This document shows, piece by piece, positions 29,268 to 40,840 of a stretch of DNA of 64,000 nucleotides. The notes below the pieces were generated by a model. That model searched no databases. It saw nothing but the letters and a program-made list of their open reading frames with translations, and was not told where the DNA came from. This DNA comes from Chryseobacterium jejuense. GTDB lineage: Bacteria > Bacteroidota > Bacteroidia > Flavobacteriales > Weeksellaceae. How positions within the stretch are numbered: the stretch's first letter is position 1; the number at the start of each line of letters is the position of its first letter. The translations under genes and the position numbers were made by a program. Where the stretch lies: the NCBI RefSeq assembly GCF_900100075.1, contig NZ_FNEG01000003.1, positions 186,001 through 250,000 of the forward strand, read 5' to 3'.

Positions 29268-29732
29268 GAGAAATTTTTAAGGCACTAAAATAAATATAAT
29301 TTCCCGGTTTTAACAAATTCATTTTAATTTTATTTAATAAAATTTAACAAATCTACAATGTAAAGTGTTCATCTTTGTATAAATGATGGTTTTGAACTGT
29401 TTGTTGTGGTGATTTTTTTATAAAATTTCTTAATAATACATAAAATTCATGTGTATATCGGATGTTCATATTTAAATTACCAAATTGGAGGATACAGGAT
29501 CTTGCCTTTAAAACTGATGAGATTTCAACCCTTCAGTTGAAGATTTATAAAGAATTTTGCATTATTTAAAGTGAGATATTAATCTTTTAGAAATTTTAGA
29601 TTGACTGAATATTCTAGAGAATCATACCTTTTCTTTATCTTGAGTAAGATCAATTCTCATAATTCCTAATAAAAATCAGGTTTTCAAGTGAAATAAAGTT
29701 CTCTCTCTGTTTAGAATTATTACAAATAAAGT
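29268..29732. other. Gene-free region between divergent genes
   Basis: AT-rich divergent intergenic region; it must hold the promoters of the 29267 gene (minus) and of the PepSY gene (plus). No ORF, repeat or riboswitch was recognised. Confidence 0.5.
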
Positions 29733-29740
29733 TATATTTG
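29733..29740 (+). promoter_or_regulatory. -7 element of the PepSY operon
   Basis: TATATTTG matches TAnnTTTG, 38 bp before the ATG at 29779. No clear -33 TTG. A Fur-type site could be expected for an iron locus, but I could not define one. Confidence 0.5.
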
Positions 29741-29778
29741 CATTTCATTTATTTTTAATAAGACTAAATAAGGGTAAT

Positions 29779-30987
29779 ATGCAAGAGACTGGTAGAAAGA
29801 AATCCAAAGGTATCTTCAAAAAATATATTCTGAAAGCTCATTTGTGGCTAGGCCTGCTTTCCGGTATTATTGTTTTAATTGTTTCTTTATCAGGTGCATT
29901 TTTTGTTTTTAATGAAGATATTACTGCTGCATTGCGTAAAGAAGACATCTTTCATGGGGAGAAAGATATTCAGCATAAAAAACCAATCCCTTTACATGAG
30001 TTAAAAGATCTGGTTAATGCCCAACTGAAAAATGAAATCGTAAAAACAGATGAAGTAACCATTCCTATTGATCCTGCCCGTTCTTACCAATTTGGACTGA
30101 TTAAAGGTAATCCTGATGGCTGGCATCACTTCAATAGCATTATTATCTATAAAAACGTGTATGTAAACCAATATACCGGAAAAGTACTTGCCATATATGA
30201 TGTAAAAAATAATCCTTTCTTTATCTGTATGGCTCTGCATCGTTCTTTGCTGCTGAGCGATAAAGTGGGTGGTACTATTGTAGGTGTAGCTACAATTATT
30301 TTCGTAGTCATGCTGGTTACCGGAATTGTCTTATGGTGGCCAAAGAATAAAAAGATGCGTAAACAACGCTTATGGTTCCAATGGGAGAAGGTAAAAGGCT
30401 GGAGACGTAAGAACTATGATGTACACAATATCCTTGGGTTTTATGCCTCTTTTCTTGCTTTCATTGTAGCGATTACCGGAATTATGTATTCGTTCCGTAT
30501 TACCCAAATGTGGGTTTATGTAGTACTTAATGGCTTCTCTTCAGCGACAACGGATTTCAGTAAGTATAAAACAACAGCTCCGGAATCTGCGGAATCTGTA
30601 ACAACCATAGACCGTATTGTTGAACAGGTAAAAATTCATTATCCGGAAGCTTATTCCTTTGGGGTTGATCTGGAAGACCATGCCCAAGCAGACCATAAAC
30701 ATGAGAATTTAAGCATTTGGATTAAAGAAAAAGAATTTACTTATGCTGAATCTTCGATGATGATTTTTGATGAACATTCAGGAAAGCTGCTGTTTAATCA
30801 TCCACACGAAAACAAGCCTATGGCTGAAAGAGCTACGGATGCTACCTATGATTTGCATGTGGGTGCGTTCTTCGGAATGCCCGGAAAAATATTGGCATTT
30901 ATCATGAGTTTGTTCTGTGCCTCATTGCCGGTAACCGGATTTATGATCTGGTGGGGCCGAAAAAATAAAAAGAAAACAACAACCTAA
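29779..30987 (+). CDS. PepSY-associated TM protein (XusC-like)
   Basis: 402-residue inner-membrane protein of the PepSY_TM family, whose members act in uptake or reduction of ferric siderophores. Four or so TM segments: LKAHLWLGLLSGIIVLIVSLSGAFF near the start, a second around GGTIVGVATIIFVVMLVTGIVLWWP, then ILGFYASFLAFIVAITGIMY and a C-terminal pair. Conserved histidines are in HLWLG, ALHRSLL, VHNILG and DLHVGAFFG. It is 11 bp upstream of an outer-membrane barrel gene and lies opposite a DUF4374/TonB-receptor pair, together matching XusABC components. Confidence 0.88.
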   Translation: MQETGRKKSKGIFKKYILKAHLWLGLLSGIIVLIVSLSGAFFVFNEDITAALRKEDIFHGEKDIQHKKPIPLHELKDLVNAQLKNEIVKTDEVTIPIDPARSYQFGLIKGNPDGWHHFNSIIIYKNVYVNQYTGKVLAIYDVKNNPFFICMALHRSLLLSDKVGGTIVGVATIIFVVMLVTGIVLWWPKNKKMRKQRLWFQWEKVKGWRRKNYDVHNILGFYASFLAFIVAITGIMYSFRITQMWVYVVLNGFSSATTDFSKYKTTAPESAESVTTIDRIVEQVKIHYPEAYSFGVDLEDHAQADHKHENLSIWIKEKEFTYAESSMMIFDEHSGKLLFNHPHENKPMAERATDATYDLHVGAFFGMPGKILAFIMSLFCASLPVTGFMIWWGRKNKKKTTT

Positions 30988-30998
30988 ACCCATTATTC

Positions 30999-33122
30999 AT
31001 GAAGAAACACTATATATGGCTACCTTTAATGGCGAGCCTGAATGCTTACGGGCAAACGGAAAGCCAGAACGATTCTTTGCAGACAGATAAAGTTTCTGAG
31101 ATTAGCGGCATCGTAGTAAAGGGCAACAAAGCGGTTTTTCAGCAGAAAGCTGATAAAATGATTTTTAATGTAGAAAACAGTGTATTATCTGATGGTACTA
31201 CGGTGTTGGAAGTATTGGGCAAAACACCTGGGGTAGTAGTCTCTCAGGATGGCGAGCTGTCGTTACGTGGAAAGAAAGGTGTAAGTGTAATGATTAACGG
31301 TAAGCTCAGTTCCCTGTCCGCTAAGGAATTGGCCAATCTGTTACGTTCTACCAACTCTACTTTGGTAAAGAATATTGAAATTATTGCCAATCCTTCTTCC
31401 AAATACGATGCTGCCGGAAATGCCGGGATCATTAATATTGTTCTTAAAAAGAGTTCATTGGAGGGACTTAGCGGGAATTATTATGTGAACGGCGGAAGAG
31501 GTCGTAAGAATAGAGTTAATACCGGATTGAGTTTGAATTACACCCATAAGAAACTGTCTCTGCATGGAGATTACAGTTATACTTTCCGCGGTGAGGAAGA
31601 AAGAAAGGATTTCAGTCAGGTTTTTTTTGATGAAAAACAGCCTCAGCTGATGACTCGCAGAACAGATCAGAATTCAATAACTAATGAGCCTTTAACTTCC
31701 AATAACTTTAAAGTAGGAGCAGATTATGCTTTCAGTGATAAAACATCCATTGGTGCTTTATTCGATGCTAAAATAGGGCGATATGAAGATTTTTCGAAGG
31801 GTGAAAACAGAATATTTCAGCCTGTAGATAATTTGTTTGCCCATGTGCTTTCAGATAACAAAAGCAAAGAAAACTGGTATGATTATACCTATAACCTAAA
31901 GGGAACACACATTTTCAATGATAAGGATTATAAGGTAGATGTGGATCTGGAATATGAAACTTCACGTTTTACTTCCCATCAGCATCAGCTTTCGGATGTG
32001 TTAGTGAATCAAGGGACAGAGAAATTTAATAATAGGAGAGGGAGTATTGCTTCCCGCCTGAAAGTCTTCAATGCTAAAGTAGATTTCACACTTCCATTTA
32101 GCGAAAAACATAGTCTGGAAACAGGATTGAAGTCTACGATAAAATCTAATAATAACCCTTCTGAATATTTTATACAGCAGGGAAAAGAGTGGATTAATGA
32201 CGATAAGGCAAGTAATGAATATGTATACAAAGAGCAGATTCATGCATTATATGCCAACTATAAGCTAAATCTTACGAAATGGACTTTCCAACTGGGATTG
32301 AGAACAGAAATGACCCATACAGACATCAACCAGAAAACATCTCAGGAGCAGCGAAAAAGAGAGTATACGAATCTGTTTCCGAGTGCCTCAATCAAATATC
32401 AGGTGAACGATCAGCATGGATTTTATGCTTCATACAGTAAAAGGATCAACAGACCAAGTCACTTCGATTTGAACCCATTCCGTTTTTACGACGACCCGTT
32501 CAATTACTGGCAAGGAAATCCGAATCTGAACCCAGAGTTTACCCATGCTACAGAATTAGGATATACCTGGGGAAAATACATCATAGCATCAGCTTATTTT
32601 AGTGTAACTAACGATGTAATGACAGAAGTTTACAATTATCAGCCGGACACAGGGATTCTTGTAAAAACTCAGGATAATCTGAACAAATCATATGTATACG
32701 GAGCCAATATAACGGCTACTACAAAGCTTTTCAATTGGTGGTCACTTACATCTATGTTCAATATTTTCAACAATGAGTATAAAGGGAATTATCAAAATTA
32801 CTCGGTAAACAGTTCACAGCTGGCCTTTACGCTCAATGCCCAAAACAGTTTCAATATTGCAAAAGGTATGAAAGCCGAGATTAATGGACAGTATTTCTCA
32901 AAATCAAATATTGGACTGTTTATCCGTGATGCTTACTTTGATCTGACATTGGGGGTTTCGAAGACATTATTGAAGGATAAAGCAACTGTAAAATTAGCGG
33001 TAACGGATTTATTAAAAACAAATAATTACCGTGTAACAGGAGACAATTTCAGTTCTACTATCCGACAGAAATATAATCTGGACAGCCGTGTGATAACATT
33101 GTCATTCAATTACAAGCTTTAG
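30999..33122 (+). CDS. Outer-membrane beta-barrel / TonB-dependent receptor-like protein
   Basis: 707-residue outer-membrane protein. The signal peptide ends AYGQ. A plug-like domain follows (IVVKGNKAVFQQKADKMIF, VLEVLGKTPGVVVSQDGEL, VSVMINGK, then NAGIINIVLKK), with no N-terminal carboxypeptidase-regulatory domain. The rest is barrel, with aromatic strand ends (FYASYSKRINRPS, GNPNLNPEF) and VITLSFNYKL at the C-terminus. It matches the OMP_b-brl_3 family. Co-transcribed with the PepSY gene (11 bp), so probably a ferric-siderophore or heme porin. Confidence 0.88.
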   Translation: MKKHYIWLPLMASLNAYGQTESQNDSLQTDKVSEISGIVVKGNKAVFQQKADKMIFNVENSVLSDGTTVLEVLGKTPGVVVSQDGELSLRGKKGVSVMINGKLSSLSAKELANLLRSTNSTLVKNIEIIANPSSKYDAAGNAGIINIVLKKSSLEGLSGNYYVNGGRGRKNRVNTGLSLNYTHKKLSLHGDYSYTFRGEEERKDFSQVFFDEKQPQLMTRRTDQNSITNEPLTSNNFKVGADYAFSDKTSIGALFDAKIGRYEDFSKGENRIFQPVDNLFAHVLSDNKSKENWYDYTYNLKGTHIFNDKDYKVDVDLEYETSRFTSHQHQLSDVLVNQGTEKFNNRRGSIASRLKVFNAKVDFTLPFSEKHSLETGLKSTIKSNNNPSEYFIQQGKEWINDDKASNEYVYKEQIHALYANYKLNLTKWTFQLGLRTEMTHTDINQKTSQEQRKREYTNLFPSASIKYQVNDQHGFYASYSKRINRPSHFDLNPFRFYDDPFNYWQGNPNLNPEFTHATELGYTWGKYIIASAYFSVTNDVMTEVYNYQPDTGILVKTQDNLNKSYVYGANITATTKLFNWWSLTSMFNIFNNEYKGNYQNYSVNSSQLAFTLNAQNSFNIAKGMKAEINGQYFSKSNIGLFIRDAYFDLTLGVSKTLLKDKATVKLAVTDLLKTNNYRVTGDNFSSTIRQKYNLDSRVITLSFNYKL

Positions 33123-33130
33123 AATATGAT

Positions 33131-33159
33131 CCTTGTCAAGGTTAGAAACCTTGTCAAGG
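33131..33159. repeat. Double palindrome CCTTGTCAAGG
   Basis: Two exact copies of the near-palindrome CCTTGTCAAGG (33131-33141 and 33149-33159) separated by TTAGAAA, just after the barrel gene and before its terminator. Confidence 0.7.
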
Positions 33160-33190
33160 ATAAACTTAATCGTGACAATCTAACCAGAAA

Positions 33191-33230
33191 TAAAAAACTG
33201 TTCTCAAAATAATTGAGAACAGTTTTTTAT
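33191..33230. terminator. Bidirectional terminator between convergent iron operons
   Basis: Perfect 12-bp stem AACTGTTCTCAA / TTGAGAACAGTT (33196-33207 / 33213-33224) with A and T runs on either side. Confidence 0.88.
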
Positions 33231-33273
33231 TAAGTAAATATCCTATATTTTCTACGAAATTGAAAGACTCTGC

Positions 33274-34476
33274 TTAGTCATAGAGTTTATCAAATCTTGC
33301 AAAACCTGAGATATTATCCGGAAGCTTCATTCCTCTAGTTATTTTATCAGTTTGCAGATCATAGATCCATACATAGTTTCCTCCTTTACTAGCATTTACA
33401 GCAATGTATAATTTTTTATTCTGAACAAATACGGCTTGTTCATAAGGTTCATCTCCGGGCAGTTCATCCAATACTCTAACCAATTGTTTGGTTTGGATAT
33501 CTACAATAGCATAACGGCCATTATAAGTGTTACCCAAAGCCGGATCACGGTATAGAATTACCATCTTATTATTACCAATATAATCGATCATTGTTTCCAA
33601 TGTTTTACCTCCTACAAGATCTGTAAGATTGATCTGATAAGTCGCATCAGGTGAAGTAGCTCCTTTAAGCGTTCTGAAAAGCTGAATTTTACTTGTTCCA
33701 GCTCCTATACGTGGGAAACATGCATAATAAAAGGCTTCATTATCTTTTCTGAAAGCGGTTTTAAAATAAGGTGAACCATTAGCTACGCCAGAGCTTCGGT
33801 TGTCACCTACTGAATGTTTTACTTTGAAGGTGTTATAATCGATTACGGCAAAGTTGTAATATTCAGGAGTTATCCATTTTCCATTACGGTAGCTATACTG
33901 CAGATAGATTTGTCCGTCCATATAGGTCATAGAGCCTAGTGTATAGAAGTTATAGGCATCCGGAAAAGGTTGGAATCCTTCAATCTCACCTTGGCGGATA
34001 ATACTAAGGTCTGAGGCATTGAAAACTGTATAACGGATATGCTGACCATCACCGGTTTCTCCAACCAATACCAAAGTATTATCATCTACCCATACATAGC
34101 TGGAAATATCGCTGATATAGGTATAAGGAACTTCTTTTGCCGTAGTCAGCCTATCTTGTGTATATTTAAACTTTTTGAAGACTCCCTGATCGGTTTTGTA
34201 GTTGTAAATAAAACCATTTTTTACAATGTAGGAATAGGTTCCCTTAGAATTAATCTCATCACCTTCTTTGGTAATATCCATGGCACCTTGGGTAAGGTCA
34301 TTGGTAGCCGTCATATAGTGTACGGTATTAGGCCAGCTTCCTAAAGCGGAAAGAAGGAAATATTTATAGTCTTTTTCACCGCTTCCGGAACTTCCGGCAT
34401 CTGGTTCACGTTCACAACCAATGATGGTTAAACATGTAAGTAATAAAAGTATACTGTTTCTGAAATATTGTGTCAT
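33274..34476 (-). CDS. DUF4374 lipoprotein (XusB-like siderophore binder)
   Basis: 400-residue lipoprotein; lipobox LTIIGC (Cys21) followed by a Ser/Gly linker. The body is beta-propeller-like, with blades such as YIVKNGFIYNYKTDQG, WVDDNTLVLVGETGDG, SMTYMDGQIYLQYSY and KKLYIAVNASKGGNYVWIYDL, as in DUF4374. In Bacteroides the DUF4374 lipoprotein XusB binds ferric enterobactin at the surface. It is 6 bp after the TonB-receptor gene, the XusA-XusB order. Confidence 0.88.
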   Translation of the reverse strand: MTQYFRNSILLLLTCLTIIGCEREPDAGSSGSGEKDYKYFLLSALGSWPNTVHYMTATNDLTQGAMDITKEGDEINSKGTYSYIVKNGFIYNYKTDQGVFKKFKYTQDRLTTAKEVPYTYISDISSYVWVDDNTLVLVGETGDGQHIRYTVFNASDLSIIRQGEIEGFQPFPDAYNFYTLGSMTYMDGQIYLQYSYRNGKWITPEYYNFAVIDYNTFKVKHSVGDNRSSGVANGSPYFKTAFRKDNEAFYYACFPRIGAGTSKIQLFRTLKGATSPDATYQINLTDLVGGKTLETMIDYIGNNKMVILYRDPALGNTYNGRYAIVDIQTKQLVRVLDELPGDEPYEQAVFVQNKKLYIAVNASKGGNYVWIYDLQTDKITRGMKLPDNISGFARFDKLYD

Positions 34477-34482
34477 GGTCTT

Positions 34483-36843
34483 TTACTTAAGTAGATATCT
34501 GAATTTTATATAGAAAGCACGTCCCTGCTTCTGAAGTTTGAAGTTATCATAAGCCAGTGCATCACTAAGATTGGTTACATCGAACGCCAAATTATATCTT
34601 CCGTTCTTCATAGAGTAGCTTATTCCTATGTTGTGAAGGGTTTGTCTTGGGATAATAGGAATGTTTCTTGGGTTTCCGTAAGTTTTCCAGTTCTTGTAAA
34701 ACCATTCAGTCATTTGTAATCCATAGTAAAGCTCTACACGGCTGTCTTTCTGAAACCAGTCGTCTTTACCGATGCTTACATTCACATTTCCAAATAACCA
34801 AGGTTGGTTAGGCACATCTTTTTTGTAAGTTGCTGAAATAACATCTTCGCTGTTGTTGGCAAATTTTGTATTGTCATAAGCTTTGTTGTAGCTTACATTC
34901 ATCAGCACATTCAGGAGTCTTTTATATTGATAATTTAGCTCTCCTTCCAGTCCGCGGGTAAGAATATTAGACAGGTTTTCATATTTGAAAGTACTGTTGT
35001 ATAAATTAGGAACGGTGAAAATAAAATCCTTTGTATCACGGATGTATCCTGCACCTTCTACACGGAAAGCATGCTCGCCCCAATGATGGCTGTAATATAA
35101 ACCTACATTTATATTATTACTGGTTTCAGGTTTCAGGTTCATATTACTGGTTATGGCAACACCATCTCCGAAGATTTCCTGTGGCTCTACCAAACGGTAA
35201 GAACGTTCAAAAGATCCTTTAATACCTAAATCTCTGGTGATTTTTACAGTGGTAGCAAAACCATAACCCCAATTACTGAAATTATCTTTTACCGGCTTAT
35301 CAGTTCTGGTTACCTGATCGAAAACCATCTTCTGAAGTCCTACCTTATAATATTTAGCAAAGAAAATATTGGTCCAGTGTTTATTGAAAAATTCCTGTTG
35401 ATAGGCCATAGACAAGATCTGCTTGGTCATCTTCGCCGGAACTACATCATCTTTCTCTTCCTCCAGTTTATTGAATGTAGTATTCTTAAGATAATCGAGT
35501 ACATAGTTAAAGATCAGCTTATGATGGTCAACAATTCTGTAAGTTGCCCCTATCTGTGAATAAAGACGGTCTTCATGCTGCATGATTATGCTTCTGCCTC
35601 CTTTTTCACTGGTAGCGGAGGGTTCAAAAGTTCCATCCCAGCTATATTTACGCATAAGAGTATCGGTTGCTTTCTGAACACTTCTAGAGAAACCTGCGTA
35701 CACATTCAAATCCAAATGGTCATTGAAGAGACTGGCCTTTTTATACTTCATAAAGTAATTATGAGCTTCTCCGGTTTGTTTTACTCCACCATACACCACA
35801 TCCTGATTAGAACCTGTCTGTATCTGTTTATCAAAAACTGATTGCGACGCTCCTATAAAGAAAGAATCTGCCCAGCTTTTGTTTTCAATCCCGAGTTCAG
35901 CCATTCCAAAAACAGATTGATAGCGGTCATTAAAACGTTTTAGATTTCTTGGCTCGTATTCATTTTTGGCAGGATTCCAGATTTTCATATCCTTCATCAG
36001 ATAGTTATTATCCGAATGGTTATAAAAACTGTTGATGCGTAGGATAATTCCCGTTTTATCATCCTTAAACTGTCCATTCAGATTAATTCTCTGCGTGTTA
36101 AAAGATCCTACACTGATCCCTGCATCCAGATAATTTTTGCTGCTTCCGGGAGTAATAATATTAACAGCTCCACCCATAGCATCGGTACTCAGATGAATAG
36201 GTACAACACCTTTATAAATCTCCACACGATCTGCCATATTTACTGGTAAGGTACTCAGATCTACACCTTTGCCGAGCATTTCCAAAGGAACACCATCTAT
36301 AAAGAATTTTACGGCTTTACCGGACATTCCGTTAATAGAGAAGTTATAGTCGGAACCTACACCTCCTTGCTGACGAACTTTAATCCCTGTGGTTCTGTTC
36401 AAAACCTGATTAAGATCTGCCGTGGTATTGGCTAGTTTTGCAACATCTATGGCATTAACGGTAAAAGCACCGTCCTGCAGTGCTTTCACTTTACCTTTAC
36501 CGTGTACAATAACTTCCTTTACCACCGATTGATCTTCTTCTAACTGAATACTTACCGGAGATCCTTCATTGCTAAAGTTCATTTTCTTTTTGAACTTTTT
36601 GTAGCCGTCCAAACTGAAAACTAATGTAGCTTCTCCTTTTTTGTAATGAATTCTGAAATTTCCGTTTTGATCGGTTTGTGTTTTAATTTTTGTGTTTTCA
36701 ACAAAAATGGTTACTCCGTTTAATCCCTGTTTTTTGTGATCCTCTACAACTCCCTGAACGGATAAACCGGTATCCTGTGCTGTAATGTGGGAAATTGAAA
36801 GAGTGAAAATGAGAAAAATAAAAATTCGCTGATATAATTTCAT
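34483..36843 (-). CDS. TonB-dependent receptor (XusA-like)
   Basis: 786-residue outer-membrane receptor. The signal peptide ends ITAQ, then a carboxypeptidase-regulatory-like domain (SVQGVVEDHKKQGLNGVTIF, residues about 27-110), a plug (LNQVLNRTTGIKVRQQGG, FFIDGVPLEMLGKG, MADRVEIYKGVVP, DAMGGAVNIIT) and a barrel ending in AFYIKFRYLLK. The closest role is ferric-siderophore uptake, from its coupling to DUF4374. Its promoter is on the minus strand at 36866-36873. Confidence 0.9.
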   Translation of the reverse strand: MKLYQRIFIFLIFTLSISHITAQDTGLSVQGVVEDHKKQGLNGVTIFVENTKIKTQTDQNGNFRIHYKKGEATLVFSLDGYKKFKKKMNFSNEGSPVSIQLEEDQSVVKEVIVHGKGKVKALQDGAFTVNAIDVAKLANTTADLNQVLNRTTGIKVRQQGGVGSDYNFSINGMSGKAVKFFIDGVPLEMLGKGVDLSTLPVNMADRVEIYKGVVPIHLSTDAMGGAVNIITPGSSKNYLDAGISVGSFNTQRINLNGQFKDDKTGIILRINSFYNHSDNNYLMKDMKIWNPAKNEYEPRNLKRFNDRYQSVFGMAELGIENKSWADSFFIGASQSVFDKQIQTGSNQDVVYGGVKQTGEAHNYFMKYKKASLFNDHLDLNVYAGFSRSVQKATDTLMRKYSWDGTFEPSATSEKGGRSIIMQHEDRLYSQIGATYRIVDHHKLIFNYVLDYLKNTTFNKLEEEKDDVVPAKMTKQILSMAYQQEFFNKHWTNIFFAKYYKVGLQKMVFDQVTRTDKPVKDNFSNWGYGFATTVKITRDLGIKGSFERSYRLVEPQEIFGDGVAITSNMNLKPETSNNINVGLYYSHHWGEHAFRVEGAGYIRDTKDFIFTVPNLYNSTFKYENLSNILTRGLEGELNYQYKRLLNVLMNVSYNKAYDNTKFANNSEDVISATYKKDVPNQPWLFGNVNVSIGKDDWFQKDSRVELYYGLQMTEWFYKNWKTYGNPRNIPIIPRQTLHNIGISYSMKNGRYNLAFDVTNLSDALAYDNFKLQKQGRAFYIKFRYLLK

Positions 36844-36865
36844 TATTTATAATTATTATAAATAG

Positions 36866-36873
36866 CAAAATTA
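36866..36873 (-). promoter_or_regulatory. -7 element of the TonB-receptor operon
   Basis: On the minus strand TAATTTTG, a full TAnnTTTG match, 22 bp before the ATG at 36843. Confidence 0.55.
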
Positions 36874-37132
36874 AAGTATCCCTATGAATCCTCAAAGGAA
36901 ACTACTTCTTTATTTTTAATTATTCTAATTATAATTAATTTTCATTTGCAGATTGAATTTAAATACAATTTGTAATTGCTTTAAAATCAAATATTAAAAA
37001 ATATAAAAGGCATTTTCTTTTCTTTTTTGTATGAAAAATATCATCTGTTATACAGGGTCCTATTCTAGGTATGTAGTCAGTTTTGATGGAGTTGTGGTGA
37101 AAACTTAATAATAAACCAATCTTTCTTTTAAC

Positions 37133-37473
37133 TTATTTGTTCTCACAGAGTTTCAATCCTTCAGTGATAAAATCACCATATGAAATTTTTAATCCAACTA
37201 AGTCAGGATCATCCAGCCATATTTCTTCGATCTTGCTTATAGAAGGATTATGATCTGAAATTCCCTTTGCAGAACCATTAAGGTGTAGACTTTTCCATTA
37301 CTGGCCTCACAGTAAATTTCTTTGTAGCCAGAACAATAAACTTCAATTTCATTTACAGAGAAGGGCCATTTTCCAGGATACTCTTCTTTTGTAAATTTTA
37401 AAGTAGGACGCTGAGTAGGACTCGAACAGGAAATGGTAATTAATAATAGTAAGAGATAATAGAATGTTTTCAT
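37133..37473 (-). pseudogene. DUF2511-like lipoprotein gene with a 1-nt frameshift
   Basis: The first frame (from ATG 37473) gives a lipoprotein signal (LLLITISC) and the family segment EYPGKWPFSVNEIEVYC, GKVYTL, then runs into a stop. Continuing in another frame at about 37278 restores NGSAKGISDHN, IEEIWLDDPDL and GDFITEGLKLCENK to a stop at 37133. DUF2511 proteins (E. coli YebY) read KVY.LNG at this point. One missing A in the coding-strand run (TTAATGG instead of TTAAATGG) explains everything, and the total length is one base short of a multiple of three. It is either a true frameshift or a homopolymer sequencing error. Confidence 0.85.
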
Positions 37474-37672
37474 AACAGTAAAATGTATCCAAATATAATA
37501 TAGAGTCTATTACGTTTATTATGGATTTCCGTAATGACTAGTGAAAAATTCAATTGAAAGCTGTAGTTTTTCTGCCAATTAATAAAGAATAGTTTTATTT
37601 TATTAAAAAAATAATATATTTGAATGAAAATTATAATGTTGATTTACAGGTGTTTAAATGGTGGATTTAGTT

Positions 37673-37786: not shown

Positions 37787-38152
37787 ATGAAAAACCAGAC
37801 TTTAACAAAGGCAGAAGAACAGGTAATGCAGTATGTATGGAAATTGGAAAAAGGATTTCTTAAAGATATTCTTGATCTGTTTCCTGAACCAAAACCACAT
37901 ACCAACACCGTTTCCACTATTTTAAAAGTATTAAAGGATAAGGAATTCGTAGACTATAATGTACACGGAAGACAGCATGAGTATTTTCCGTTGGTCACCA
38001 AAGAGCAGTATTCAGGAAAGACCATGAAGAGCCTTGTGAAAAATTATTTCAAAGGATCCTATAAAAGTGCCGTTTCATTTCTGGTAGAAAAGAATGAAAT
38101 GACTGTAGAAGATCTTGAAATGTTACTGGACGAACTTAAAAACAAAGACTAA
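37787..38152 (+). CDS. BlaI/MecI/CopY-family repressor
   Basis: 121-residue winged-helix repressor. N-terminal LTKAEEQVMQYVWKLEKGF, recognition helix region HTNTVSTILKVLKDKEFV, wing VDYNVHGRQHEYFPLV, and a C-terminal dimerisation helix (AVSFLVEKNEMTVEDLEMLLDEL). In the family the protein is cleaved when the M56 partner senses a signal. It lies 5 bp before the M56 gene and downstream of a matching operator, so autoregulation is likely. The inducer need not be a beta-lactam. Confidence 0.93.
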   Translation: MKNQTLTKAEEQVMQYVWKLEKGFLKDILDLFPEPKPHTNTVSTILKVLKDKEFVDYNVHGRQHEYFPLVTKEQYSGKTMKSLVKNYFKGSYKSAVSFLVEKNEMTVEDLEMLLDELKNKD

Positions 38153-38157
38153 TAACC

Positions 38158-39879
38158 ATGGAAACTATACTTCTATACTTTGGAAAAGTAATTTTATGTT
38201 CAGGTGTAATGTTTCTGTATTATCAGTTGTCTTTAAAAGACAAGACATTCCATCATTATAACAGATTTTATCTTTTATTGGCAATTGTGATATCACTGTT
38301 GTTACCGCTTATTAAAGTGGATGATTTTACAATAGAAGTTAATAGTGATGTGTATTTGCTGCTTGATAAGATTCAAAATTTTAACACACAAAAAAACGTA
38401 AGCAATGGTAACCTTTATTTTAACATTATTTTTTCAGCTCTGGGACTGGTTTCTCTCTACTTTTTAGGGAAGCTTATCTACGGGATCTTTAAGATTCAGC
38501 AGTTTAAGGGACAGTTTCAGAAAGAAAGCTTTGACGGGATTAATTTTTACCGTACAGACCTTACCGAAGCTCCGTTTTCATATTTTAAAAACCTTTTCTG
38601 GAAGAATACCATTATCCTGGATTCTGATGTAGGGAAGCAGATTTTAAAACATGAAATGGTTCACATTGAACAGAAACACTCATTTGATAAGATCCTTATT
38701 GAAGTGGTTACAGCTGTTTTCTGGTTCAATCCGTTCTTTCATATCATTAAAAGAGAAATTAGTTTAATCCATGAATATCTGGCTGATAAAAAAGCCGTAA
38801 AGAATTCGGACACCAAAGCATTTGCGCAGATGCTTTTAGCAAGCCACTTTTCCGGAACCCAGTTGCCTGCTTCCAGTCCGTTTCTAAGTTCAAACCTTAA
38901 AAAAAGACTTAAAATGTTACAAAAACCAAAAACCAAATTCGGGTATGCGCGTAGAATCCTTGCGTTGCCGGTTTTATTCACTGTAGCTTTTGCTTATCTG
39001 GTAAACGCTAAGAACAGAGAAATTGAAGAAACTAACCTTTCTGTTAAAAAAGCACTTACAGAAATTAAAAATGATACTGTAAAAGAAAAAACAGAGCATA
39101 AAGAGAAAACAGGATTGCCTGACCCTGAAGATTCCAACAAGCAATTGGCTGAGCTTCAGAAAAAAATGGAAGGAAAACAGAAAGAGTTAAGTAAACTTGA
39201 TCCTGACAGCAATGCTTTTGAAAAGAAAATGGAGGAAATAGATGAACTGGTTTCTGCCATGACTGAAATTACAGATGAATCCAGCAGACAGGTAGAAGCG
39301 TATTTTAATTCTCCTGAATGGAAAAAACAAATGGAGGAGCTTGAAAATATGGAGCCTCTTGATAAAAAAGAACTTCGAAAAATAGAGAGAGAAGCTGCAA
39401 AAGCGGCTAAGGAAGCTCAAAAAATAGGTAAGAAAGCCGCAAAATTGGGTGTGGATGCTGCAGAAATCGGAAGAAAAGCAGCTGAACAAGCCAGAATAGA
39501 AGTTGAAAAATCTAAAATTGATGTGGAAGCTGCAAAAAAAGCAGCTGAGCAGGCTAAGGTAATTGCAGAACAGGCAAGACAGGAAGCCGAGATTGCCACA
39601 AAGAACATGAGCTTCACAACAGTAAAAGGTTATCCCAAAGTAATGGTGCTGCAGGCAGATTTCATTAAAAGAGACGGAAATGGAAACATCACTATGAATG
39701 GGGTGAAGAAGTATAATATGAGAGGTATGGATAATATAAAATACTTCATTGATGGAGTTGAAATTTCCAAAGAAGAAGCTCATTCTCTAAAGCCTGAAAA
39801 TATTGCAAGCATTAATATCATTAAGGAAAATGCAATACGGGGGACGCAGAATGAAATAAGAATTCAGACAAAAAAATAA
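38158..39879 (+). CDS. M56-family sensor protease with long C-terminal extension
   Basis: 573-residue BlaR1-like membrane metalloprotease. N-terminal TM segments, zinc motif HEMVHIEQKH (HExxH) and a further TM region near residue 270. After it comes a charged, helical stretch (about 320-500) rich in Ala/Lys/Glu heptads, likely a periplasmic coiled coil. The C-terminus (about 495-573: VLQADFIKRDGNGNI, IKYFIDGVEISKEEA, ENIASINIIKENA) resembles a TonB-receptor plug, as often seen in Bacteroidota M56 proteins, and no penicillin-binding sensor domain is present. Partner of the BlaI-type repressor. Confidence 0.9.
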   Translation: METILLYFGKVILCSGVMFLYYQLSLKDKTFHHYNRFYLLLAIVISLLLPLIKVDDFTIEVNSDVYLLLDKIQNFNTQKNVSNGNLYFNIIFSALGLVSLYFLGKLIYGIFKIQQFKGQFQKESFDGINFYRTDLTEAPFSYFKNLFWKNTIILDSDVGKQILKHEMVHIEQKHSFDKILIEVVTAVFWFNPFFHIIKREISLIHEYLADKKAVKNSDTKAFAQMLLASHFSGTQLPASSPFLSSNLKKRLKMLQKPKTKFGYARRILALPVLFTVAFAYLVNAKNREIEETNLSVKKALTEIKNDTVKEKTEHKEKTGLPDPEDSNKQLAELQKKMEGKQKELSKLDPDSNAFEKKMEEIDELVSAMTEITDESSRQVEAYFNSPEWKKQMEELENMEPLDKKELRKIEREAAKAAKEAQKIGKKAAKLGVDAAEIGRKAAEQARIEVEKSKIDVEAAKKAAEQAKVIAEQARQEAEIATKNMSFTTVKGYPKVMVLQADFIKRDGNGNITMNGVKKYNMRGMDNIKYFIDGVEISKEEAHSLKPENIASINIIKENAIRGTQNEIRIQTKK

Positions 39880-39888
39880 AGTTCAACC

Positions 39889-39925
39889 AGGCTTTGCCAA
39901 TATCGTATTGACAAAGCCTTTTTTA
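39889..39925 (+). terminator. Terminator after the M56 gene
   Basis: Stem AGGCTTTG / CAAAGCCT (39889-39896 / 39912-39919) then TTTTTT. It lies just before the GLPGLI start, so readthrough or a separate promoter must serve the next gene. Confidence 0.7.
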
Positions 39926-39934
39926 TCATCCATT

Positions 39935-40840
39935 ATGAAAAATAAGATTCTATTTTTTATGTTCCTGGGAATACTGGCTAATGCACAGATGAACAGGTTC
40001 TATTATGAATACAAATTTATTCCGGACTCCAACAATAAAGAGGATGTAAAGAAGGAAATAATGTTTCTGGATATTGATAAAAACGGATCAAACTATTACA
40101 GCCATGATAAATTTGTAGCAGATTCCACAATGAGAGCAGATCTTGAAAAACAGATCAATAATGGTGGCGGAAGTTTAAAAATGAACAAAACCGAAAGGCC
40201 AGGTGATGTTTCCTATAAAGTAACCAAGCAGTATCCTGATTTTAAAACTTATCTTTTCAGAAGCATCTCCATGGATAAATATAAAATCAAAGATGATAAA
40301 AAACCGGAATGGAAAATCTTATCTGATAAACAAAAAATTGGAGAATATAATGCTCAAAAAGCAACCACAAGCTTTGGCGGAAGAGAATGGACAGCATGGT
40401 TTACAACAGATATTCCCTTTCAGGATGGGCCGTATGTATTTTATGGACTTCCGGGACTTATTGTGAAAATAGAAGATGCTACAGGATCCCACAGTATGCA
40501 GTTGGTAGGAAATAAAACTGTACAAAATCAGAATGCTGAAAAAGAAGTTCAACTTCCTGAAAAAGTAAAGATATTAGGATTAGGAGGAAAGGAAATTGAA
40601 GTAACTAAAGATCAGTTTAAGAAAGCCTGGAAAGCCTATGTAAATGATCCTACAAAAGGTATGAGGGAGATGATGATGAGAAATGGTGGTGAATTGGGAA
40701 CCCAGGTTGCTTTTAAAGTAAAAACAGCGGATGGAAAGGAGTTTTCAGATCCGAGCCAGATTTTCAAAGAAATGGAAAAAAGAACGAAAGATAAACTTCA
40801 AAAAGATAACAATCCGATAGAACCGGATCTGGTGAACTAA
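39935..40840 (+). CDS. GLPGLI-family secreted protein
   Basis: 301-residue protein with a signal peptide (MKNKILFFMFLGILANAQ). It has the diagnostic GLPGLI motif in GPYVFYGLPGLIVKIED and the family's preceding TAWFTTDIPF. Function unknown. The ATG at 39935 was used because an in-frame upstream start (39908) lies inside the terminator. Its position after BlaI-M56 is common for GLPGLI genes in flavobacteria. Confidence 0.93.
   Translation: MKNKILFFMFLGILANAQMNRFYYEYKFIPDSNNKEDVKKEIMFLDIDKNGSNYYSHDKFVADSTMRADLEKQINNGGGSLKMNKTERPGDVSYKVTKQYPDFKTYLFRSISMDKYKIKDDKKPEWKILSDKQKIGEYNAQKATTSFGGREWTAWFTTDIPFQDGPYVFYGLPGLIVKIEDATGSHSMQLVGNKTVQNQNAEKEVQLPEKVKILGLGGKEIEVTKDQFKKAWKAYVNDPTKGMREMMMRNGGELGTQVAFKVKTADGKEFSDPSQIFKEMEKRTKDKLQKDNNPIEPDLVN

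Follow-up and report, generated by a model that had tools for sequence, protein, structure and literature searches.

A four-gene locus resembling the Xus siderophore-uptake systems lies in a 64,000-nucleotide stretch of the Chryseobacterium jejuense genome (assembly GCF_900100075.1, contig NZ_FNEG01000003.1, positions 186,001 to 250,000; hereafter the window), within a genome of 5.17 Mb in 20 contigs. Xus systems have been described in gut Bacteroides and relatives. A preliminary description placed here a XusA-like receptor beside a XusB-like lipoprotein, with a PepSY membrane protein coupled to an additional barrel in a convergent layout. The coordinates confirm this layout, and the Pfam, Protein Data Bank (PDB), profile and fold comparisons given below agree with the gene content. 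All four open reading frames are intact, two on each strand in converging pairs; 11 bp separate the PepSY stop from the barrel start on the plus strand, and the receptor and lipoprotein genes on the minus strand are spaced by 6 bp, as described. The features are as follows (positions in the window).

29646-36931: smallest segment found reversed in two relatives (L031, L032) by blastn of the flanks; holds the four genes and three Fur-like boxes
29709-29727, plus strand: Fur-box-like site before the PepSY operon, three mismatches, 51 bp before the ATG
29779-30987, plus strand: PepSY_TM inner-membrane protein, 402 amino acids, candidate haem-based ferrisiderophore reductase (PF03929, 209 bits)
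30999-33122, plus strand: second outer-membrane barrel, 707 amino acids, OMP_b-brl_3 family (PF14905, 357 bits; PF00593, 84 bits)
33189-33231, both strands: bidirectional terminator-like repeat shared by the two operons; inverted arms of 19 bp, perfect, with an A-tract and a T-tract, and a 5-nt loop
33274-34476, minus strand: XusB-like lipoprotein, 400 amino acids, lipobox cysteine C21, predicted beta-propeller, no hook
34483-36843, minus strand: XusA-like TonB-dependent receptor, 786 amino acids, with CarboxypepD-like domain, plug and TonB barrel (Pfam, PDB)
36845-36863, minus strand: Fur-box-like palindrome directly before xusA, two mismatches
36912-36930, minus strand: second Fur-box-like site before xusA, three mismatches

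The receptor carries Pfam matches to CarbopepD_reg_2, Plug and the TonB barrel. Its best PDB match is 9gbc_A, the XusA of Bacteroides thetaiotaomicron (B. theta), with an expectation value (E) of 1.3e-116 and residues 7-782 aligned to 6-790; BtuB comes second at E 2.6e-11. The 9GBC entry is the B. theta XusAB complex (PMC13142918). Judged by sequence, the receptor is a XusA homologue over its length. Membership of the MxcH-like family of NCBIfam was considered and rejected, at 427 bits against a cut-off of 925.

The lipoprotein was less readily placed. On its own it failed to match Pfam DUF4374 at a threshold as loose as E 10, received no NCBIfam name and hit no XusB chain in a single-sequence PDB search; a DUF4374 (PF14298) search of its own genome at E 0.1 also returned nothing, which shows little because no control genome matched either. 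With a profile built from 20 relatives of the lipoprotein (A2), the top PDB match was 9hqe_A, the XusB of Bacteroides fragilis (BfXusB), at E 3e-23 and nearly full length, and the next five sequences were of the B. theta or B. viscericola XusB/DUF4374 type (E 3e-5 to 2e-4); among these, 8gex is labelled DUF4374 only and was taken to be B. theta XusB from its scores. Up to E 10 the profile matched seven sequences, the six under E 0.001 all being XusB/DUF4374 and the seventh standing at E 0.22. Two of the relatives in the profile, 23% (L026) and 28% (L048) identical to the window protein, exceed the DUF4374 cut-off, and the lipobox cysteine is nearly invariant among the relatives. The structure comparison with XusB, proposed as a check in the preliminary description, gave a match to XusB best, and above all to the hookless BfXusB. 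An AlphaFold model with a predicted local distance difference test (pLDDT) score of 83.3 retrieved BfXusB at ranks 1-6 in Foldseek. With VIA, the two BfXusB entries scored Z 32.6 (root-mean-square deviation 3.1, 346 aligned) and Z 32.2 (3.2, 344 aligned), followed by B. viscericola XusB at Z 25.1 and other propellers at no more than 20.7. The earlier DUF4374 label thus stands for the family profile, the relatives above the Pfam cut-off and the predicted fold, and fails for the protein itself in Pfam; on these three lines the lipoprotein is a short, hookless homologue of XusB. Its closest named relative found, in a search that may leave out records of the window's own genome, is 97% identical and comes from C. 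jejuense CC143.

DUF4374 proteins are reported to form two classes, one of about 465 amino acids with a hook that binds catecholates, and one of about 410 amino acids that includes the hookless, ferrichrome-binding BfXusB and is linked to hydroxamates; the hook of the enterobactin-type long XusB is an insertion of about 15 residues, at a length near 465 amino acids (PMC13142918). The window protein, with 400 amino acids and no insertion of more than three residues relative to BfXusB in the A2 alignment, falls in the short class. The ferric enterobactin or salmochelin envisaged in the preliminary description is not supported by a short, hookless protein nearest to BfXusB, and the substrate is probably not enterobactin-like. 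Our best guess is a hydroxamate, ferrichrome itself being unproven. None of the BfXusB contacts (Y52, Y77, L93, W235, W323, D352-G354 and F398) is kept at the aligned positions, position 77 still being aromatic (F), and these contacts are mostly unkept in the other aligned relatives too, the alignment of the loops being unsure. Ferrichrome was not retained as the substrate for want of these contacts, and is neither supported nor excluded. Across 18 Chryseobacterium, Elizabethkingia and Myroides lipoproteins, 65% of sites in loops within five residues of seven mapped contacts are invariant, compared with 42% elsewhere (6 of 364 circular shifts were as high); within three residues the figures are 63% and 44% (23 of 364 shifts).

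Upstream of both operons lie Fur-box-like sites. The scan used a consensus (ATTTAGAATTATTCTAAAT, up to three mismatches) from Riemerella, a genus of the same family as Chryseobacterium. In Riemerella anatipestifer this pattern is predicted to be the Fur box, and gel shifts support it at selected promoters (PMC5609570). The whole window contains four matches at three places, all of them upstream of the two cassette operons, where 0.21 were expected, and none of 100 shuffles reached four matches. Within 200 bp upstream in the relatives of the cassette, the pattern occurs before xusA in 16 of 17 loci and before pepSY in 13 of 17, at varying positions. Similar boxes precede one of three Myroides xusA genes and two of three Myroides PepSY-barrel pairs. 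A scan for sigma-70 promoters was not used, as it returned 48 sites against 35 expected. The cassette is probably iron-regulated, to judge from these sites.

The PepSY protein matches 7abw in the PDB at E 1.3e-4, and designed SAKe proteins match a short stretch of it better. The 7abw entry is the PepSY protein FoxB (PMC13001220), which has two haems held by conserved histidines (PMC13038864, PMC13001220); PepSY reductases are needed for the use of ferrichrome and ferrioxamine in Caulobacter and Burkholderia (PMC13001220, PMC10866019). Histidines 21, 154, 216 and 360, unmapped onto the FoxB structure, are invariant in all 18 aligned PepSY proteins, and we regard the window protein as a candidate haem ferrisiderophore reductase of the FoxB type. 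It had been equated with XusC, of which the presence of a PepSY membrane protein holds and the affiliation needs qualifying: in a tree with weak deepest forks and without B. theta XusC, the window protein and its orthologues cluster (100/99) with a pair of PepSY proteins encoded beside other receptors in the same genome, apart from seven that follow XusAB (L127-L130, L132, L133, L136) and from that of L125. One receptor beside the two grouped proteins passes the TonB-siderophore cut-off of 223.5 (265.6 bits) and the other fails it (100.6 bits). Among the 14 loci fetched from the phylum-wide search (L124-L137), eight, namely L125 and the seven just listed, have PepSY immediately after the lipoprotein gene and on its strand; PepSY lies 0.7 kb further on in L137 and before XusA in L131, and was not seen in the stretches fetched for L124, L126, L134 and L135. 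The window locus suggests that the reductase part of Xus is replaceable. In L124 (genome G428) the XusA-XusB pair converges with genes for a periplasmic-binding protein, a FecCD permease and an ATP-binding cassette ATPase. The window's own genome holds six further PepSY_TM genes (L138-L142), each near a TonB receptor, and five of the seven receptors scanned there exceed the TonB-siderophore cut-off.

The second barrel matches barrel families in Pfam with no Plug hit, and TIGR01783 weakly, from residue 67 (55 bits against a cut-off of 223.5). Its profile matched PhuR (E 0.002) and a ferric enterobactin receptor (E 0.008) weakly in the PDB; its AlphaFold model failed (pLDDT 27.4) and was therefore kept out of the fold comparisons. 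The barrel probably acts as a TonB receptor, either for the iron complex handled by XusAB or for a related one. An order-wide sample contained the barrel at E 1e-120 in 11 of 395 genomes, four of the same genus and seven of a single genus in another family, probably Flavobacterium, whose barrels are 49-51% identical to that of the window. Four of these seven (L184, L185, L187, L190) have a XusA-XusB-PepSY operon that converges on the barrel; L188 has PepSY only, and in L186 and L189 the barrel is alone. The XusA proteins of the four group with three of the seven XusAs of co-directional Xus operons (95/97) and not with the window type. Either the barrel, then, became associated with two lineages of XusA, or XusAB was replaced beside it. 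A single-direction arrangement of lipoprotein, XusA, lipoprotein, PepSY and barrel (33-35% identical) occurs in L125. The second barrel, which according to the preliminary description may widen the substrate range, thus recurs next to Xus operons. In Myroides an orthologous pair of PepSY and barrel genes, the barrel 67% identical, lies on contigs other than those of XusAB.

The four genes are kept as a unit. A scan of named genomes gave 22 fetched loci, comprising 17 with the four-gene layout, three with XusAB only (Myroides) and two distant ones; the layout was found in all 17 named Chryseobacterium and Elizabethkingia loci (with split frames in L042) and in eight of eight further stretches, some from the same genomes, and since several genomes share contigs these counts are not independent. 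The barrel is present in 27 of 173 genomes of the genus at E 1e-150. These include all 22 of the lipoprotein-positive genomes of the same genus, and the other five also carry the lipoprotein, in one case in two pieces. Two genomes depart from the pattern. In G223 the lipoprotein is a 32-codon remnant, XusA is absent and the barrel is full length; the PepSY protein lacks residues 135-375, with three of the four histidines gone, and has in this one case decayed with XusAB. G224 has a barrel cut short at residue 620 of 707, alongside full-length copies of the remaining three genes.

The cassette also occurs in two orientations at one site. Between the same flanking genes it stands as in the window in L028, L029 and L201, and the opposite way round in L031, L032 and L206. 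Blastn of the flanks in L031 and L032 places the breakpoints at 29452-29645 and 36932-37606, outside all the Fur-like boxes; L206 was compared by its reversed gene order only. One flank is in window order in L046 and L204, which share a contig, and the remaining cassette loci have none of these flanks within the stretch compared. A search at the cassette ends for inverted repeats that might account for the orientations gave short or imperfect matches, such as one of 26 nt (81%) in the window, and no convincing terminal repeat; in L031 the longest (47 nt, 72%) links the promoter regions of the two operons and so falls inside the breakpoints. The two orientations may have arisen by inversion or by separate insertions.

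We consider it quite probable that the locus is a XusAB-type cassette, repressed by Fur, for the uptake of ferric siderophores. Iron shortage would lift Fur repression of both operons. The lipoprotein would act as a lid on XusA, capture the ferric siderophore at the XusB site and pass it to XusA for TonB-driven import, and PepSY would use two haems bound by its four histidines to reduce the periplasmic iron, so that the siderophore releases it. Several observations weigh against this. The Fur pattern has 49 matches in the genome compared with 22 for a backwards control, a modest excess that makes single Fur-like sites weak evidence; among the six receptors that adjoin the genome's other PepSY genes only two have such a box, and none of the seven barrels of the probable Flavobacterium genomes has one, though their four XusA genes do. 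The PepSY gene lies outside the XusAB operon on the opposite strand, and its protein is apart in the tree from those that follow XusAB. The two pairs are on different contigs in Myroides (L172-L174 and L043-L045). As for the substrate, the hydroxamate reading draws on the missing hook and on the two-class correlation of one paper, the ferrichrome contacts of BfXusB not being kept in the lipoprotein.

Alternatively, the locus might hold two independent neighbouring iron-uptake modules, XusAB for one siderophore and PepSY with the barrel for another. Such an arrangement would fit the separate contigs in Myroides, the intact barrel of G223 in the absence of XusAB, the truncated barrel of G224 next to an otherwise complete set, the barrels without an adjoining Xus operon in L186 and L189, and the position of each of the six other PepSY genes of the genome near a receptor. 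However, each of the 27 barrel genomes, out of 173 in the genus, carries the lipoprotein or at least a remnant of it, the four genes stand as a block in both orientations at one site, the Xus operons that the barrel adjoins represent two XusA lineages, and in L125 the genes run in a single direction. We find two separate modules a somewhat doubtful explanation.

That the cassette imports the cell's own siderophore and not foreign ones is unlikely. Elizabethkingia anophelis does produce a siderophore, by means of iuc genes (PMC7221216), and in G072, of the same genus as the window, a divergent XusB-XusA pair (L200:2492-9077) follows genes for a GNAT acyltransferase and a lysine/ornithine N-monooxygenase that run in one direction. 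The genes at this locus may form a cluster for a hydroxamate siderophore that includes an importer of the XusAB type. Some XusAB pairs may thus serve a producer, and we infer rather than observe that the siderophore is a xenosiderophore here. Against an own siderophore, no siderophore synthesis enzyme is among the eight proteins scanned in and near the locus, and the window's own genome has no IucA/IucC synthetase match, in a search that was positive in two of 14 controls and did not extend to non-ribosomal peptide synthetase or N-hydroxylase genes. BtuG lipoproteins are also beta-propeller lids, but a BtuBG-like cobalamin transporter, suggested by BtuG structures after XusB in the Foldseek list and by BtuB as the second-best match of the receptor, is very improbable given E 1e-116 for XusA against 1e-11 for BtuB, a VIA Z of 32 for BfXusB against about 20 for BtuG, level with unrelated propellers, and the Fur-like boxes and PepSY partner.

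Returning to the Fur-repressed cassette of the XusAB type, we also put forward a wider proposal, tentatively and with more doubt than conviction: that Flavobacteriia have a form of XusAB uptake with a dedicated second barrel facing the Xus operon and joined to two XusA lineages, which in Chryseobacterium has become a self-contained, two-orientation cassette with a swapped-in reductase. In its boldest form, once PepSY has stripped the iron, the barrel would deal with the siderophore left empty, or with another form of the same ligand, and siderophore theft would thereby become a cycle.

Both gene pairs converge on one terminator-like inverted repeat, the 19-bp element at 33189-33231, in line with the single terminator of the preliminary description. 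The whole intergenic region, including a second hairpin, folds with z = -7.1. A consensus terminator scan did not list the repeat, probably because its T-run lies inside the stem. A similar A/T-tracted repeat of at least 16 bp is the best repeat in 12 of 17 intergenic regions, those of the window and 16 relatives (the split-frame locus L042 being left out); the best is another palindrome in L029 and L038, only 13 bp in L039 and 11 bp in L040, and L030 has none. An imperfect palindrome of two CCTTGTCAAGG units also lies between the converging genes (33129-33161); the unit occurs in the same gap in six of the 17 loci (window, L029, L037, L038, L041 and L046) and nowhere else in the window. Adjoining the cassette, at 37787-40840, are genes for a BlaI-like repressor, an M56 peptidase and a GLPGLI-family protein.

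The analysis extends XusAB-type uptake to Chryseobacterium and Elizabethkingia, shows that the Pfam label misses some XusB proteins, and singles out the second barrel recurring beside Xus operons as a defined target for tests. Neither Chryseobacterium nor flavobacteria are named in the main text of the Xus structural paper (PMC13142918). In the library searched, no paper brought together xenosiderophores, Bacteroidota and Chryseobacterium, and the three listed for Chryseobacterium with siderophores, TonB and ferrichrome are, judged by title, on other subjects. The E. anophelis iron study mentions neither PepSY nor a lipoprotein in its main text (PMC7221216).

By its predicted functions, the cassette is a XusAB-type ferric-siderophore uptake system with a different reductase and an extra barrel. 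It resembles B. theta XusABC (BT2063-2065) in its CarboxypepD-like XusA receptor, adjacent propeller lipoprotein, nearby PepSY and predicted iron control, and differs from it in the hookless lipoprotein, the PepSY gene in an opposite operon, the extra barrel and the convergent layout. BfXusB (BF9343_4228), which binds ferrichrome (PMC13142918), is the best profile and fold match and shares the short length class, whereas the window lipoprotein is only about 21% identical to it and does not conserve the ferrichrome-contacting residues. The plus-strand pair recalls FoxB, HiuB and FhuB, which stand beside hydroxamate receptors (PMC13001220, PMC10866019), in its PepSY_TM domain, four invariant histidines and barrel-gene partner; unlike in those systems, the barrel in the window belongs to OMP_b-brl_3 and scores far below the siderophore-receptor cut-off, and a XusAB operon converges on the pair.

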